64,000 bases of DNA, from contig QHXI01000073.1 in NCBI GenBank assembly GCA_003222895.1, positions 1,880 to 65,879 of the forward strand, written 5' to 3'. Under the pieces are notes generated by a model. The model was not told where the DNA came from, did not search any database, and saw only the letters and a list, made by a program, of their open reading frames with translations. Positions 7,489-55,397 of the stretch are shown piece after piece; position 1 is the stretch's first letter, and each line of letters begins with the position of its first letter. The DNA is from Acidobacteriota bacterium (lineage in GTDB: Bacteria > Acidobacteriota > Blastocatellia > Pyrinomonadales > Pyrinomonadaceae). The position numbers were made by a program, and so were the translations under genes.

Positions 7489-7962
7489 ATGAAGCAAGCT
7501 ATCAGTATCAATGTCAACGGGGCCGATCATGCCGGCGAAGTCGAGCCGCGTCTGTTGCTCGTGCATTATTTGCGCGACGTGCTCGGTCTGACCGGAACAC
7601 ATATCGGTTGTGAAACTTCGATCTGCGGTGCCTGCACGATTCTGCTCGATGGCCAAGCGGTAAAGTCTTGCACGATGTTCGCGGTGCAAGCCGATGGATC
7701 GAACATCACTACGATCGAAGGCCTCGCCACGAACGGCAACTTGCATCCGATGCAGGAAGGTTTTTGGGAATGCCATGGTTTGCAGTGCGGTTACTGCACG
7801 CCGGGAATGATCATCGCGGCAACGCAAATTGTCGACAGAAACCCGAACCCATCGCGCGATGAGATTCGGCACGGGCTGGAAGGAAATTTGTGTCGCTGCA
7901 CCGGCTATCAACATATTGTTGAGGCCGTCGAGTACGCGGCAGCAAAAAAGTCTGGAGTCTGA
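7489..7962 (+). CDS. coxS: CoxS-like [2Fe-2S] subunit of xanthine/CO dehydrogenase family enzyme
   Basis: The 157 residues carry both ferredoxin-type cluster sets of molybdenum hydroxylase small subunits: [21 protein letters not shown] (about 43-64, plant-type [2Fe-2S]) and CGYCTPGM with CRCTGYQ (about 101-133). The protein passes electrons from the Mo centre to the FAD subunit. It is the first gene of a coxS-coxL-coxM-coxG order. The last codons (TCT GGA GTC TGA) lie inside the left arm of the element at 7948-8381, so the natural C-terminus was replaced by repeat-derived residues. Confidence 0.93.
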
Positions 7963-8381
7963 AGTCTTGAAGTCTGAAGTGGTGCAGTGGCGACATTCTC
8001 TCGACTCGAAGATACAGGTTTGGCAGAAAGCTCGCCACGTCACAAAACAGATCTATGAGACAACATCAAACGGAAAATTTGCCCAGGACTACGGCTTACG
8101 AAATCAAATTCAGCGGGCCAGCGTATCGATCATGGCCAATATCGCTGAGGGATTTGGTCGCAGGTCCGATAAGGAGTTTGCCAACTTCTTGAACATCGCT
8201 CCTGGATCGGTAGCAGAAGTTCAGTCTCATCTCTATCTTGCTCTTGATTTGGCTTACATCACTAGAGCGACCTTCAATGAGCTGAACGGACTACTTGATG
8301 AAGTCTCTCGAATGACTCTAGTGCTTGCTCAACATTTGAGGAAATCTAAATTCTGAGTCTTTGACTTCAGACTCCAGACTT
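7948..8381 (+). mobile_element. Stem-flanked four-helix-bundle element between coxS and coxL
   Basis: AAGTCTGGAGTCTGAAGTC at 7948-7966 is the exact reverse complement of 8363-8381 (19/19). Both arms are iterations of a 7-8-bp word around AGTCTGA, extending to 7980 on the left and to about 8396 on the right. The loop is a single four-helix-bundle gene. The element begins inside the coxS stop region and ends just before the coxL ribosome-binding site. The layout resembles 23S rRNA intervening sequences, which also encode this protein type between complementary ends, but here it is in a protein operon. That it is mobile is inference. Confidence 0.7.
7979..8356 (+). CDS. Four-helix-bundle protein (23S rRNA intervening-sequence protein family)
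   Basis: The product of about 125 aa shows the family pattern: an N-terminal W-x-KARHVTKQIYE helix, LRNQIQRASVSIMANIAEG, GRRSDKEFANFLNIAPGS, then SHLYLALDL. Starts are ambiguous: GTG 7979 or 7982, or TTG 7967; all lie in or next to the left arm. Family members are known from 23S rRNA insertions and as accessory proteins in diversity-generating retroelements (Avd); no reverse transcriptase is present here. Biochemical function is not established. A relative lies at 43807-44181 with unrelated arm sequence. Confidence 0.85.
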   Translation: MVQWRHSLDSKIQVWQKARHVTKQIYETTSNGKFAQDYGLRNQIQRASVSIMANIAEGFGRRSDKEFANFLNIAPGSVAEVQSHLYLALDLAYITRATFNELNGLLDEVSRMTLVLAQHLRKSKF

Positions 8382-10807: not shown

Positions 10808-10899
10808 CATTGGTTCATTGATTCATTGCGTCATTGATTCATTGGCTTGTCGGTCATGTTTTCTAATGAATCATTGAATCAATGAGTCAATGGACCAAT
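10808..10899. repeat. Inverted arms of an 8-bp word (ATTGATTC type), no ORF
   Basis: The left arm (10808-10845) reads ATTGGTTC ATTGATTC ATTG and continues in the same 8-bp phase. The right arm (10865-10899) is the inverted form, its reverse complement starting ATTGGTCCATTGACTCATTG. About 17 of 19 bases pair at the outer ends. It lies directly after the coxL stop and just before the coxM ribosome-binding site. The plan matches the four-helix-bundle elements but the loop is only about 20 bp. Confidence 0.75.
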
Positions 10900-27773: not shown

Positions 27774-27921
27774 ATCCACAGATTTCACAGATTACACAGA
27801 TTAGCCAAACAAGGTCAGGAACATGCATAACAGGCCGAAGAGAATTTGGTAAAGACTTTTCGTCCTTGCTTGTTCCCTCTTGCCCTGTTTTTGAATCTGT
27901 GAAATCTGCGTAATCTGTGGA
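27774..27921. repeat. Inverted arms of a 9-bp word (CACAGATTA type), no ORF
   Basis: Left arm 27774-27803 reads ATCCACAGATTTCACAGATT and on in 9-bp steps. The right arm 27894-27921 is the inverse (AATCTGTGAAATCTGCGTAA then TCTGTGGA). The loop has a smaller inverted pair (GGAACA/TGTTCC). It lies between the elbD-like stop and the SDR start, 11 bp before ATG 27933. The same word family is at 31938-32053. Confidence 0.8.
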
Positions 27922-30930: not shown

Positions 30931-30942
30931 CGGAGCAGTTTT

Positions 30943-31098
30943 ACCACAGAGGACACAGAGGAAGAAAAAAATCAGCCACGAAGATGCACAGAAGGCACAA
31001 ACGATAAAAGGGAAACCACGGCTGCGGTTGATAATCCTTTTGTGCTTCTCGTGCCTTTTTGTGGCTGATTAGATTTCCTCGGCGTCCTCTGTGGTTAA
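30943..31098. repeat. Nested inverted arms of CACAGAGG/GGCACAA words, no ORF
   Basis: The outer left arm ACCACAGAGGACACAGAGGA (30943-30962) is answered on the right by TTTCCTCGGCGTCCTCTGTG then GTTAA (31074-31098). An inner pair AATCAGCCACGAAGATGCAC (30970 on) is answered by GTGCCTTTTTGTGGCTGATT (31051-31070). The right arm encodes the last residues of the PlsC-like protein (LTTEDAEEI). Words of this CCACAGAGG type occur in many unrelated environmental genomes. Confidence 0.78.
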
Positions 31099-31932: not shown

Positions 31933-31937
31933 GATTC

Positions 31938-32053
31938 ATCCACAGATTACACAGATTACACAGATTGAGAAACAGCACACCGCTAACCTCTCAGGAATGC
32001 CATTTTCAAGCACGCTCACTCGTTTTGCCTTCTAATCTGTGTAATCTGTGGAT
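31938..32053. repeat. Inverted arms of the CACAGATTA word, second copy
   Basis: Left arm 31938-31968 is ATCCACAGATTACACAGATT continuing in 9-bp steps; the right arm 32034-32053 is its inverse AATCTGTGTAATCTGTGGAT. It fills the gap between metH (stop at 32056-32058) and the PlsC-like start. The loop (about 65 bp) has no ORF. Same word as 27774-27921. Confidence 0.8.
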
Positions 32054-32055
32054 GT

Positions 32056-42796: not shown

Positions 42797-43789
42797 ATGA
42801 AGCGCAAACTGTTTGGATTGCTACGCCGGATTGGCTTTCTAATCCTGGTCGTGTGGACGGTGGTCTCGCTCGTCACGATTCTGATCGAGCTTGTCCCCGG
42901 AGATCCTGCGGTTGCGGTGCTCGGCGAACAAGCAACGCCGGAACAATTAGCTCAATTCAGGGCAAAGCACGGACTGGACCGGCCTCCGTTCTTCTTTGGC
43001 TTTCCCAGCGATGATCACGGCCAGCGTCACTTTCGCTTGTACGGTTTGGATAATCGCTACGACGATTATTGGGTAGCAATCCTGCATGGCGATTTAGGAA
43101 ATTCCTTTCGCACCGATCAACCCGTAATCGATCTAATCTTCGAACGCTATCCGGCCACGATCGAGCTGGCAATCGCGGCGATGCTGATCGCAGTGGCGAT
43201 CGCAATTCCTTTGGGAGTTGTCGCGGGAAAAAATCGGGGGACGCTCCTGGACAATGGCCTATCGGTGATCGCTTTGGTTGGAATAAGTCTGCCGAGTTTC
43301 GTTATTGGACCAATGCTCGTTTACCTCTTCGCTGTGAAGCTTGGGTGGTTGGCGCCGTCAGGCAGATTCGACTGGAGCGACATCATTCTTCCTTCGTTCA
43401 CTTTGGGTGCCGCGCTGTCTGCGATCCTGACGCGCATGGTGCGATCGTCTGTGATCGAAGAGTTGGGCGAAGGCTACGTCCGCACCGCGCGCGCAAAGGG
43501 TTTGAGCGAACGCTCGGTCGTTTACAAGCACGTATTGAAGAATGGATTAATTCCGGTGGTCACCGTATTGGGTTTGCAGCTTGGCGTTCTGCTGGCCGGC
43601 GCGATTATCACGGAAAAGATTTTTGGCTGGCCCGGGCTCGGCCTGCTGCTGGTCGAAGATGGAATTGGGAAACGCGATTATCGCATCGTACAGGGCTGCG
43701 TGCTGGCAATTAGCACGACCTACATCATCGCGAACACGCTCACAGATATGATTTATCGTTGGTTGGATCCGAGAATCCGAGTTCAGTGA
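42797..43789 (+). CDS. Dipeptide/oligopeptide-type ABC transporter permease (DppB-like)
   Basis: The 330 aa begin with a membrane helix (IGFLILVVWTVVSLVTILIE) and the DppB N-terminal signature VPGDPAVAVLGEQATPEQLA, with a short periplasmic insertion (residues about 55-90), then five further helices and the EAA loop EELGEGYVRTARAKGLSERS, which docks with an ATPase. It forms the pore with the DppC-like protein at 44276. No substrate-binding protein or matching ATPase lies in the window. Its last codon abuts the arm of the element at 43786-44273. Confidence 0.9.
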   Translation: MKRKLFGLLRRIGFLILVVWTVVSLVTILIELVPGDPAVAVLGEQATPEQLAQFRAKHGLDRPPFFFGFPSDDHGQRHFRLYGLDNRYDDYWVAILHGDLGNSFRTDQPVIDLIFERYPATIELAIAAMLIAVAIAIPLGVVAGKNRGTLLDNGLSVIALVGISLPSFVIGPMLVYLFAVKLGWLAPSGRFDWSDIILPSFTLGAALSAILTRMVRSSVIEELGEGYVRTARAKGLSERSVVYKHVLKNGLIPVVTVLGLQLGVLLAGAIITEKIFGWPGLGLLLVEDGIGKRDYRIVQGCVLAISTTYIIANTLTDMIYRWLDPRIRVQ

Positions 43790-44273
43790 CAAGTTGCGAG
43801 TGACAAGTGACGAGCAAATCAATAGTGCAAGGTTTTAGAGACCTGTTAGTCTGGCAAAAGTCGATGCTCTTGGTGAAGCAGACATATTTTCTAACTCGTC
43901 AGTTTCCAAATGATGAGAGATTCGGCCTTATCTCGCAAATGCGCCGAGCGGCAGTTTCAATCCCGTCGAACATAGCTGAAGGACAAGCCCGTCATTCGAC
44001 CGGTGAATTCATACAGTTCATTTCAAATGCGGAAGGTTCAGTAGCTGAGTTGGAGACACAACTCGAGATTGCTGTTGACTTGGGATATTGCACTCCGTCT
44101 CAAAAAGAATTCGTGCTGGCGCTTGCCGAAGACATACGAAAGATGCTCAACGGTCTTCGCAGGAGATTACAAGGCCTATGAGTTTCGCGTACGACCATCT
44201 TGCTCGCGGCTTGTTACTTATCAACCGCAATGTGACTTGCTTGTCACTCGTCACTTGTCCCTTGTCACTTGTC
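43786..44273 (+). mobile_element. Stem-flanked four-helix-bundle element between dppB- and dppC-like genes
   Basis: Left arm 43786-43814 reads GTGACAAGTTGCGAGTGACA then AGTGACGAG; the right arm 44240-44273 is CTTGTCACTCGTCACTTGTC then three more 7-bp words. GACAAGTGACGAG (43802-43814) is the exact complement of 44247-44259, and the arms share the GTGACAA word. The arms begin in the dppB-like stop codon and end 2 bp before the dppC-like ATG. The loop is the four-helix-bundle gene. Arm sequence differs completely from 7948-8381 but the architecture is the same. Confidence 0.7.
43807..44181 (+). CDS. Four-helix-bundle protein (23S rRNA intervening-sequence protein family), second copy
   Basis: The 124 aa show the family pattern: FRDLLVWQKSMLLVKQTYFL, then GLISQMRRAAVSIPSNIAEG, GEFIQFISNAEGSVAELETQ, and a final amphipathic helix ending RKMLNGLRRRLQGL. 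The GTG start (43807) lies in the left arm. It is clearly related to the copy at 7979-8356 (shared RAxVSI, NIAEG, GSVAE) but diverged, so the two are not a recent duplication. Function is not known for the family; binding to the arm stem RNA is an attractive guess. Confidence 0.87.
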   Translation: MTSKSIVQGFRDLLVWQKSMLLVKQTYFLTRQFPNDERFGLISQMRRAAVSIPSNIAEGQARHSTGEFIQFISNAEGSVAELETQLEIAVDLGYCTPSQKEFVLALAEDIRKMLNGLRRRLQGL

Positions 44274-44275
44274 TT

Positions 44276-45091
44276 ATGAATCGTCTGTCAATCATCGGCA
44301 TCGCCATCGTCGTCATCTTCGTCCTCGTGGCGATCTTCGCGCCATGGATCGCTCATTACGACGTCGGTGCGACGAATCTGGCAATGCGTTACATGCCGCC
44401 GTCCGCGGCACACTGGTTCGGAACCGACTCAACCGGCCGCGATATTTTTTCGCGAGTAGTTTTTGGCGCGCGCATCTCGCTCGAAGTCGGCTTGGTCGTC
44501 GTCGCGGTTTCCGCATTCATCGGAACATTGATTGGAGCAGTTGCCGGCTATTACGGCAGATGGATCGATGCTTTGTTGTCGGGCTACATCTTCAACGTGT
44601 TTCTCGCGTTTCCCGGACTGCTACTTGCGATCGCTTTGGTCGCGTTTCTTGGCGCCGGTCTCAACAAGTTGATCTTTGCCCTGTGTATCATCGGTTGGGT
44701 CGGCTACGCGCGTCTGATTCGCGCGCAGGTTCTGAAGGTTCGCGAATATGATTTCGTCCAAGCCGCGCGCGCCCTCGGTGCCGGAGACTTTCGCATTCTG
44801 TTCGTTCACATTCTGCCGAACGCAATCCAACCTCTGATCGTGCAAGCAAGCTTAGGAATGGCGGGCGCGGTTCTTTCTGAAGCTGCGCTTTCGTTTCTGG
44901 GCCTGGGTGTGCCGCCGCCAGCGCCGTCCTGGGGCGTAATGATCGAAGAGGCACGCGACCTCTCGACGCTGCAAGCCGCGCCTCATGCCTTGATTTTTCC
45001 GGGAATCGCGATTGCGCTCACGGTGCTCGCATTTAATTTCATCGGCGACGGCCTGCGCGAATATCTCGACCCGCGCCAACGGCGGCGATAA
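44276..45091 (+). CDS. Dipeptide/oligopeptide-type ABC transporter permease (DppC-like)
   Basis: The 271 aa begin MNRLSIIGIAIVVIFVLVAI and include HWFGTDSTGRDIFSRVVFGA, the classic DppC segment, six helices, and the EAA loop REYDFVQAARALGAGDFRIL. It pairs with the DppB-like permease. ATG 44276 follows the repeat arm directly with no Shine-Dalgarno sequence visible, so the inserted element may have changed its translation. It overlaps no gene; the ABC ATPase follows 4 bp later. Confidence 0.9.
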   Translation: MNRLSIIGIAIVVIFVLVAIFAPWIAHYDVGATNLAMRYMPPSAAHWFGTDSTGRDIFSRVVFGARISLEVGLVVVAVSAFIGTLIGAVAGYYGRWIDALLSGYIFNVFLAFPGLLLAIALVAFLGAGLNKLIFALCIIGWVGYARLIRAQVLKVREYDFVQAARALGAGDFRILFVHILPNAIQPLIVQASLGMAGAVLSEAALSFLGLGVPPPAPSWGVMIEEARDLSTLQAAPHALIFPGIAIALTVLAFNFIGDGLREYLDPRQRRR

Positions 45092-54707: not shown

Positions 54708-55397
54708 TTATTGCTTTTCCGGGACTACCGGCTTGGCAGTTTCTTTTTCCGGGACTACCGGCTTGGCAGTTTCTTTTTCCGGGACTACCGGCTTGGCAGT
54801 TTCAACTGTCGGCGCATCGGAAGGAGCGGCTTTAGCCGCAGTCATGGCTTCGACCGGGCTCGGTGTTCGGAGAGGCTTGACCTCGACTGACTTTTCTCTG
54901 CGACCATCGGTCCAAACCGTATCGCGACGAAAGATCAAACGGCCTTCTTCGATGGCCACAAGTTGGCCATCAAAGAACCTTTCGCCGGGATAAATCACGT
55001 ACGAAAGTTTGGGAGCTAGAGGTGTCGCTTCGACCATCGCTGACCAGCCGCGCGGCGAGCGGAAGATGCCCGTCACTTGTACTTCGTTGAGCAGCAAAGC
55101 CGTGGTTGGCTTCGGGGCGGCAACGTGTGCGTTAGCAGCGGCCATCTTCTCCGCGCGATAACGCTCGATGCGCATCTGAATTGAAGGCGCCTCGAGCTTG
55201 GCAACAACCCTGGTCTGCTTGACCGGTGGCTGATATTTCTTGAAAGGATCGCGAACAGACGACTTCTCGTTGGCCGGCGGATTCTTCGCTTCGCTTTTTT
55301 CTTTTTCTTGCGCAGCGGCGCTAATCGCAACGAGGCTCATCGCGCCAAGGATGGCCGCGAAGCTTAAGCTGTAACGGATGGCTGTTTTGAAGTTCAT
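54708..55397 (-). CDS. pilP: PilP-like type IV pilus assembly lipoprotein-type protein
   Basis: 229 aa with a signal peptide (YSLSFAAILGAMSLVAISAA), then the PilP core (SVRDPFKKY, about 46-54; LNEVQVTGIFRSPRGWSAMV, about 108-127; GERFFDGQLVAIEEGRLIF). PilP links the inner-membrane PilN/PilO complex to PilQ. No lipobox Cys is evident. The C-terminus is three tandem copies of ETAKPVVPEK from a 30-bp repeat, probably variable between strains. Gap of 202 bp to pilQ contains an imperfect hairpin (about 54666-54698). Confidence 0.85.
   Translation of the reverse strand: MNFKTAIRYSLSFAAILGAMSLVAISAAAQEKEKSEAKNPPANEKSSVRDPFKKYQPPVKQTRVVAKLEAPSIQMRIERYRAEKMAAANAHVAAPKPTTALLLNEVQVTGIFRSPRGWSAMVEATPLAPKLSYVIYPGERFFDGQLVAIEEGRLIFRRDTVWTDGRREKSVEVKPLRTPSPVEAMTAAKAAPSDAPTVETAKPVVPEKETAKPVVPEKETAKPVVPEKQ
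54711..54803 (-). repeat. 30-bp tandem repeat in pilP 3' end (x3)
   Basis: The unit starting TTCTTTTTCCGGGACTACCG recurs at 54741 and 54771, with a slightly altered copy at 54711. It encodes ETAKPVVPEK and keeps the frame at any copy number. Confidence 0.95.

Follow-up and report, generated by a model that had tools for sequence, protein, structure and literature searches.

What is a small four-helix-bundle gene doing between the dppB- and dppC-like permease genes of this genome, and what are the inverted arrays of short words that enclose it? The window, i.e. the whole stretch of DNA analysed (64,000 nucleotides), holds at positions 43785-44273 an IVP/S23 gene (23S rRNA-intervening sequence protein, PF05635) inside inverted 7-bp GTGACRA arrays (Table 1). 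The original prediction of a four-helix-bundle gene between inverted arms is borne out by the PF05635 match and by the arms, since the alignment of the upstream and downstream flanks scores 39, above all of 100 dinucleotide shuffles (mean 17.6, maximum 25). The perfect pairing of 13 bp that had been claimed (43802-43814 with 44247-44259) proved exact on recheck. The longest arm register (43785-43821/44233-44269) covers 37 nt with 81% complementarity, and since each arm is an array, further registers occur at steps of one word. In the predicted RNA fold of the element the arms pair with each other (z = -3.6). The element fits tightly between its neighbours: the stop codon of dppB (43787-43789) falls within the first word of the left arm, and the ATG of dppC lies only 2 bp beyond the last word of the right array. 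The likely start of the IVP gene itself is GTG 43825, immediately inside the arm; GTG 43807, within the arm, is the less likely candidate.

Table 1. Features of the window discussed in the text (positions are those of the window)
Feature	Position	Strand	Remarks
dppB-like permease gene, upstream neighbour	42797..43789	+	ORF; location next to dppC conserved in relatives
Left arm	43785..43821	+	7-bp word array AGTGACA/AGTTGCG/AGTGACA/AGTGACG
IVP gene (23S rRNA-intervening sequence protein / four helix bundle, PF05635)	43807..44181	+	PF05635 E 2.3e-39
Right arm	44233..44273	+	Inverted array TGACTTGC-TTGTCAC-TCGTCAC-TTGTCCC-TTGTCAC-TTGTC; paired part 44233-44269
dppC-like permease gene, downstream neighbour	44276..45091	+	ORF
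Second IVP element, word AAGTCTG (7 bp), gene L007	7948..8381	+	Arms 7948-7966 and 8363-8381
Gene-less hairpin, 8-bp word ATTCATTG	10809..10899		Word and period as in IVP element L012 elsewhere in the genome

The encoded protein belongs to the IVP family, with 134 bits to PF05635 at a curated cut-off of 33.8. The AlphaFold2 model (pLDDT 93.9) has the four-helix-bundle fold of the family, the closest solved structure being 2gsc (TM 0.83-0.96), which is XCC0516 of Xanthomonas, a relative reported as a pentamer. No catalytic residues or catalytic site were recognised in the IVP protein. With the rRNA intervening sequences (IVSs) the window element has the inverted flanks around an IVP gene in common; its place is not inside an rRNA gene but between dppB and dppC.

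It had also been proposed, from two cases, that the architecture is conserved and not the sequence, and the second IVP element of the window indeed combines the same design with another word. The 4.77 Mb genome gives 17 IVP hits (two of them fragments of a single disrupted gene), and nearly all of them lie inside inverted word arrays, each with a separate word; arms were undetectable at G000:C164:12538-12855 (L008) and G000:C25:11826-12008 (L015). The latter gene has an internal stop. Inverted flanks are by no means confined to this genome, so that the refuting case named in the original prediction, namely their absence around other family members, did not arise. Among 126 IVP loci from 65 genomes of the Blastocatellia family, arms (score of at least 28 and above all shuffles; a score of 28 is reached at 0.25% of random window positions) surround 107, with a period of 7 bp in 101, 9 bp in three and 8 bp in one. 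A search of all bacteria gave 80 loci, 79 of them analysable, with arms in 67 (period 7 in 57, 8 in seven and 9 in three). These armed loci come from Planctomycetes, Bacteroidetes, Proteobacteria, Firmicutes, Spirochaetes, Chloroflexi, Gemmatimonadetes, cyanobacteria and candidate phyla. The unit consists of inverted arrays of a single short word, most often 7 bp long, enclosing a gene that encodes a four-helix-bundle protein. This protein is under strong purifying selection (dN/dS 0.10-0.15).

A parallel design was found for GxxExxY (PF13366) genes, with inverted arms at 28 of 31 loci and words mostly of 8-10 bp. The window has gene-less hairpins of 9-bp words (ACAGATT.. / CACAGAGGA) at 27775-27921, 30940-31098 and 31937-32054, and this word class flanks GxxExxY (PD-(D/E)XK-like) genes in relatives. 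A 30-bp tandem repeat in three perfect copies at 54715-54803 lies within a minus-strand reading frame.

The original prediction proposed looking for occupied and empty sites in related strains, and both occur, at the dppB-dppC junction and in cyanobacterial plasmids. A word-array hairpin is present at the junction in 18 of the 34 genomes that could be read there, including the genome of the window. These hairpins use 14 different words (one of 9 bp), and three of them carry IVP genes, each with a different word. In G006, the closest relative (82-83% identity in dppB/dppC), a 55-bp spacer devoid of arrays separates the two genes, and in four other relatives dppB and dppC overlap or abut. With so many words received, the gap between the two genes in the relatives (L018-L062) looks like a preferred landing site.

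The cleanest insertion was read in cyanobacterial plasmids. The flanks of L384 (Trichormus variabilis) and of the empty site L387 (Nostoc linckia) are 98% identical, and the insertion in the former consists of a 423-bp element (AAATCAG...CTTCTTT) with a 5-bp target duplication, GTAAT, both absent from the latter. The same insertion is found in L396, where the left arm is 14 bp (two words) shorter. Relatives of the L384 element occupy other sites (L394, L395), and the L395 copy also begins with AAATCAG. A gene-less insertion of 234 bp with a 4-bp duplication (TGAC) was found at L403. Precise insertion with target duplication was accordingly read within the class at L384 versus L387, not at the window copy, and two further cases are weaker. 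Target duplications are clear in only two cases; direct repeats of at least 5 bp beside the arms show a modest excess (19.5% versus 11.4%, 174 elements), and in the empty-site comparisons of L382, L383 and L385 the sequences are too diverged to give exact ends. A decayed copy with a large internal deletion stands at the L384 site in Nostoc sp. C052 plasmid pC052_E (L388), and gene-less elements with AGGAGTC words occur in plasmids (L399/L401); these are possibly steps from gene-bearing to gene-less elements. It is the entire unit that moves into narrow intergenic gaps, leaving a 5-bp target duplication in the cleanest case.

The main expectation, that arm words co-vary with protein clade, holds for 205 elements and for Blastocatellia alone. 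When each element was compared with its nearest homologue in another genome, the words differed by at most one mismatch in 80% of comparisons at protein identities of at least 70%, in 54% at 60-70% and in about 9% at 50-60%, the base rate for random pairs in this set being 3.4%. Within Blastocatellia, pairs with at least 60% identity had words within one mismatch in 45% versus 5.6% after permutation (maximum 10%), same-genome pairs and pairs with homologous outer flanks being left out. The nearest relatives of P0001 in other genomes (L064, L065, L066, L070 and L071; 61-70% identical) occupy other sites with GTGAC[AG]A or close variants, and other relatives of similar distance have the word GGGACGA. 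Words kept within other clades across genomes include GAGGGAT, GATGAAC, GATTGCG, AGTGGTC, AGCAGTG and AAGTTTC. Word length behaves similarly: the three nearest homologues of L012 (67-76% identity) also have 8-bp words, and the next ones 7-bp words. Even across phyla, elements of cyanobacterial plasmids and of Acidobacteriota, with proteins that are 68-78% identical, have a common word family (AAGTCAG/AGGAGTC). Both word identity and word length go with the protein clade, across genomes and across phyla. Permuting the word order in one arm lowered the pairing in 82 of 100 elements, which indicates that an odd word in one arm has its counterpart in the other. Columns of the IVP alignment, searched for specificity residues, gave no convincing ones.

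Many hairpins lack the gene. When 830 kb of the genome were scanned de novo, 64 inverted word-array hairpins were found, versus one in shuffled sequence; an IVP gene is present in 11 and the other 53 are gene-less. The arms lie outside reading frames in 53 of the 64 although non-coding DNA makes up only 15% of the sequence, and the median distance from gene ends is 9-10 bp. Among 28 gene-less hairpins of period 7, the word is identical to that of some IVP element in 17 (random expectation 1.2) and within one mismatch of an IVP word in 27. The 8-bp word of L012 likewise recurs in gene-less hairpins, one of them in the window, and in the GTGACRA family gene-bearing and gene-less copies have common outer ends of the type TAAAAGCAGTGAC. 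Hairpins that draw on this word lexicon but lack the gene are common; as short multi-copy inverted-repeat elements with empty sites they correspond to MITE and REPIN families. Their distribution over genomes is uneven. More than half of 119 genomes have no GTGACRA arrays, and those with the word-matched clade have more of them (p = 0.006, n = 5). Gene-less hairpins showed no significant preference for the words of the IVPs in their own genome (p = 0.21). Matches to three GTGACRA words number 743 in G079 and 884 in G080, two genomes of one genus, several-fold above the other genomes searched, and no IVP gene was found in G079 (83% complete) despite these arrays. The strict expectation that a cognate IVP is present wherever its word abounds fails for G079, G011, G020, G023 and others.

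Taken together, the evidence supports the original interpretation as regards covariation and mobility. We consider it probable that the window element represents one copy of an IVS/IVP-class mobile hairpin element, whose protein would act on arms of its own word while a host or co-resident enzyme would do the cutting. The IVP pentamer would hold the folded arms of its own word, either as hairpin DNA or as the corresponding RNA hairpin, and if it does so, each word would therefore mark the arms for recognition by one protein lineage. It is likely that the IVP protein reads its own word. The protein would also mobilise gene-less copies in trans. Since the IVP has no recognisable catalytic site, cutting and joining would probably be left to a host or co-resident enzyme that makes a staggered cut of 4-5 bp. 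The arrays may grow and shrink by whole words, with the arms kept complementary word by word, and the IVSs of 23S rRNA would be those copies whose insertion site was an rRNA gene.

A correlation between word and clade would also follow from joint inheritance of gene and arms. The main rival explanation is therefore one of passive linkage, in which a mobile element carries gene and arms together and words track clades through joint copying, the protein not reading the word but acting as an RNA chaperone, in hairpin protection or in a host function. It owes its rank to the gene-less families that abound in genomes without the cognate gene, as in G079 and G011, and to the lack of a significant own-genome preference; the fading of covariation below 60% identity and the unconvincing alignment columns also fit it. 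We nevertheless regard it as unlikely, though well worth keeping in mind, in view of arms that are iterated words instead of ordinary flanks, a word length that shifts with the clade, gene-less period-7 hairpins that, all but one, keep within one mismatch of an IVP word, and the higher number of GTGACRA arrays in genomes that have the word-matched clade. An improbable explanation makes the IVP mere cargo, with gene-less hairpins and IVP units alike being passengers of an unrelated transposase, which could be RAYT/REPIN-like or a DDE enzyme that acts on the ends. The gene-less majority does resemble MITE and REPIN families, and target duplications of 4-5 bp resemble those of DDE transposition, but this would require a separate transposase for the word of each IVP clade, whereas the elements carry none, and they leave no room inside for a RAYT (Y1) transposase. 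Single-strand transposases of the REP/IS200 type are not known to leave a target duplication, which speaks against that variant.

The protein fold raises retrotransposition as a further option, with a reverse transcriptase copying an RNA form of the hairpin and the IVP acting like Avd of diversity-generating retroelements. The IVP model superimposes on Avd (4dwl, TM 0.90), the fold also occurs in the complexes of these retroelements with reverse transcriptase (8ub7), and the window protein matches PF22296 (bAvd), at a level below the curated cut-off. Such retroelements combine Avd with a reverse transcriptase, however, and RVT_1 gave no match in the genome of the window (G000, 17 IVP hits) nor in 85 of the 119 family genomes, many of which bear IVPs. 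A resident reverse transcriptase was accordingly rejected as the motor for G000. The sense strand of the arms is also free of a G-U bias (119 versus 96, p = 0.13), so that an RNA form is unsupported by that test, and we judge retrotransposition to be very improbable. Finally, the hairpins could be local regulatory structures such as terminators or RNase III sites, arising and expanding in place by slippage and immobile. Their intergenic position close to gene ends would suit this, and heptamer arrays elsewhere have been taken as regulatory sites (PMC2700814, PMC4679880). A purely regulatory reading of the whole unit is contradicted by precise insertions with empty sites and by the recurrence of one gene and word at unrelated sites as well as in other phyla, which makes it extremely improbable; a regulatory side effect of the hairpins is possible. 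We thus retain the mobile hairpin element whose protein acts on arms of its own word as the preferred explanation.

A wider version of this explanation, which we put forward tentatively and rate at slightly below even, is a bacteria-wide class of mobile elements free of transposases. A pentameric Avd-like protein and an iterated word of 7-9 bp would evolve together like lock and key and would mobilise hairpins with and without the gene; rRNA IVSs and several heptamer arrays would be known fragments of the class, and the GxxExxY nuclease-like system with 8-10 bp words would be a parallel. Scattered reports on rRNA IVSs and on the heptamer arrays of Xanthomonas, Geobacter and Beggiatoaceae would so be joined into one mobile class across the bacterial phyla sampled. 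The match of word and clade offers a direct biochemical handle on the role of IVP/S23, a question that goes back more than 25 years, to the discovery of IVSs in rRNA.

Among known systems, the heptamer arrays of Xanthomonas (GGGAATC, intergenic, 70-75 convergent pairs; PMC4692102), Beggiatoaceae (TAACTGA, intergenic; PMC4679880) and Geobacter (paired or tandem heptamers between genes; PMC2700814) are tandem 7-bp words between genes, as in the elements described here. Such arrays were present in all 26 Xanthomonas genomes searched, and the IVP element L415 of X. codiaei has the word GGGATTC, matching the GGGAATC arrays. As far as searched, none of the array reports makes a tie to an IVP gene or to insertion events, and a literature search of open-licence papers found no paper linking IVP genes to intergenic word arrays. 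The 23S rRNA IVSs with an S23/IVP frame, known from Leptospira, Coxiella and Brucella, are similar in protein family, inverted flanks and length (about 430 bp). Unlike the present elements, which lie between protein genes, have word arrays in both arms and include gene-less families, they lie within rRNA, from which RNase III excises them. The IVS of Coxiella has 2-3 tandem heptamers GACAGAT before the S23 gene in a copy number that varies between strains, and its protein is reported as probably not made (PMC4990558). Both the Coxiella IVSs and the Xanthomonas arrays appear to belong to the word-array IVP class. Avd has the same fold as the IVP, but it is accompanied by an adjacent reverse transcriptase, whereas the IVP here has none. 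Similar to REPIN-RAYT systems and MITEs, the elements comprise small gene-less intergenic palindromes along with a rarer gene-bearing copy. In contrast to these systems, they have no tyrosine or DDE transposase, they show target duplications, and their arms are tandem words that change with the four-helix-bundle protein.
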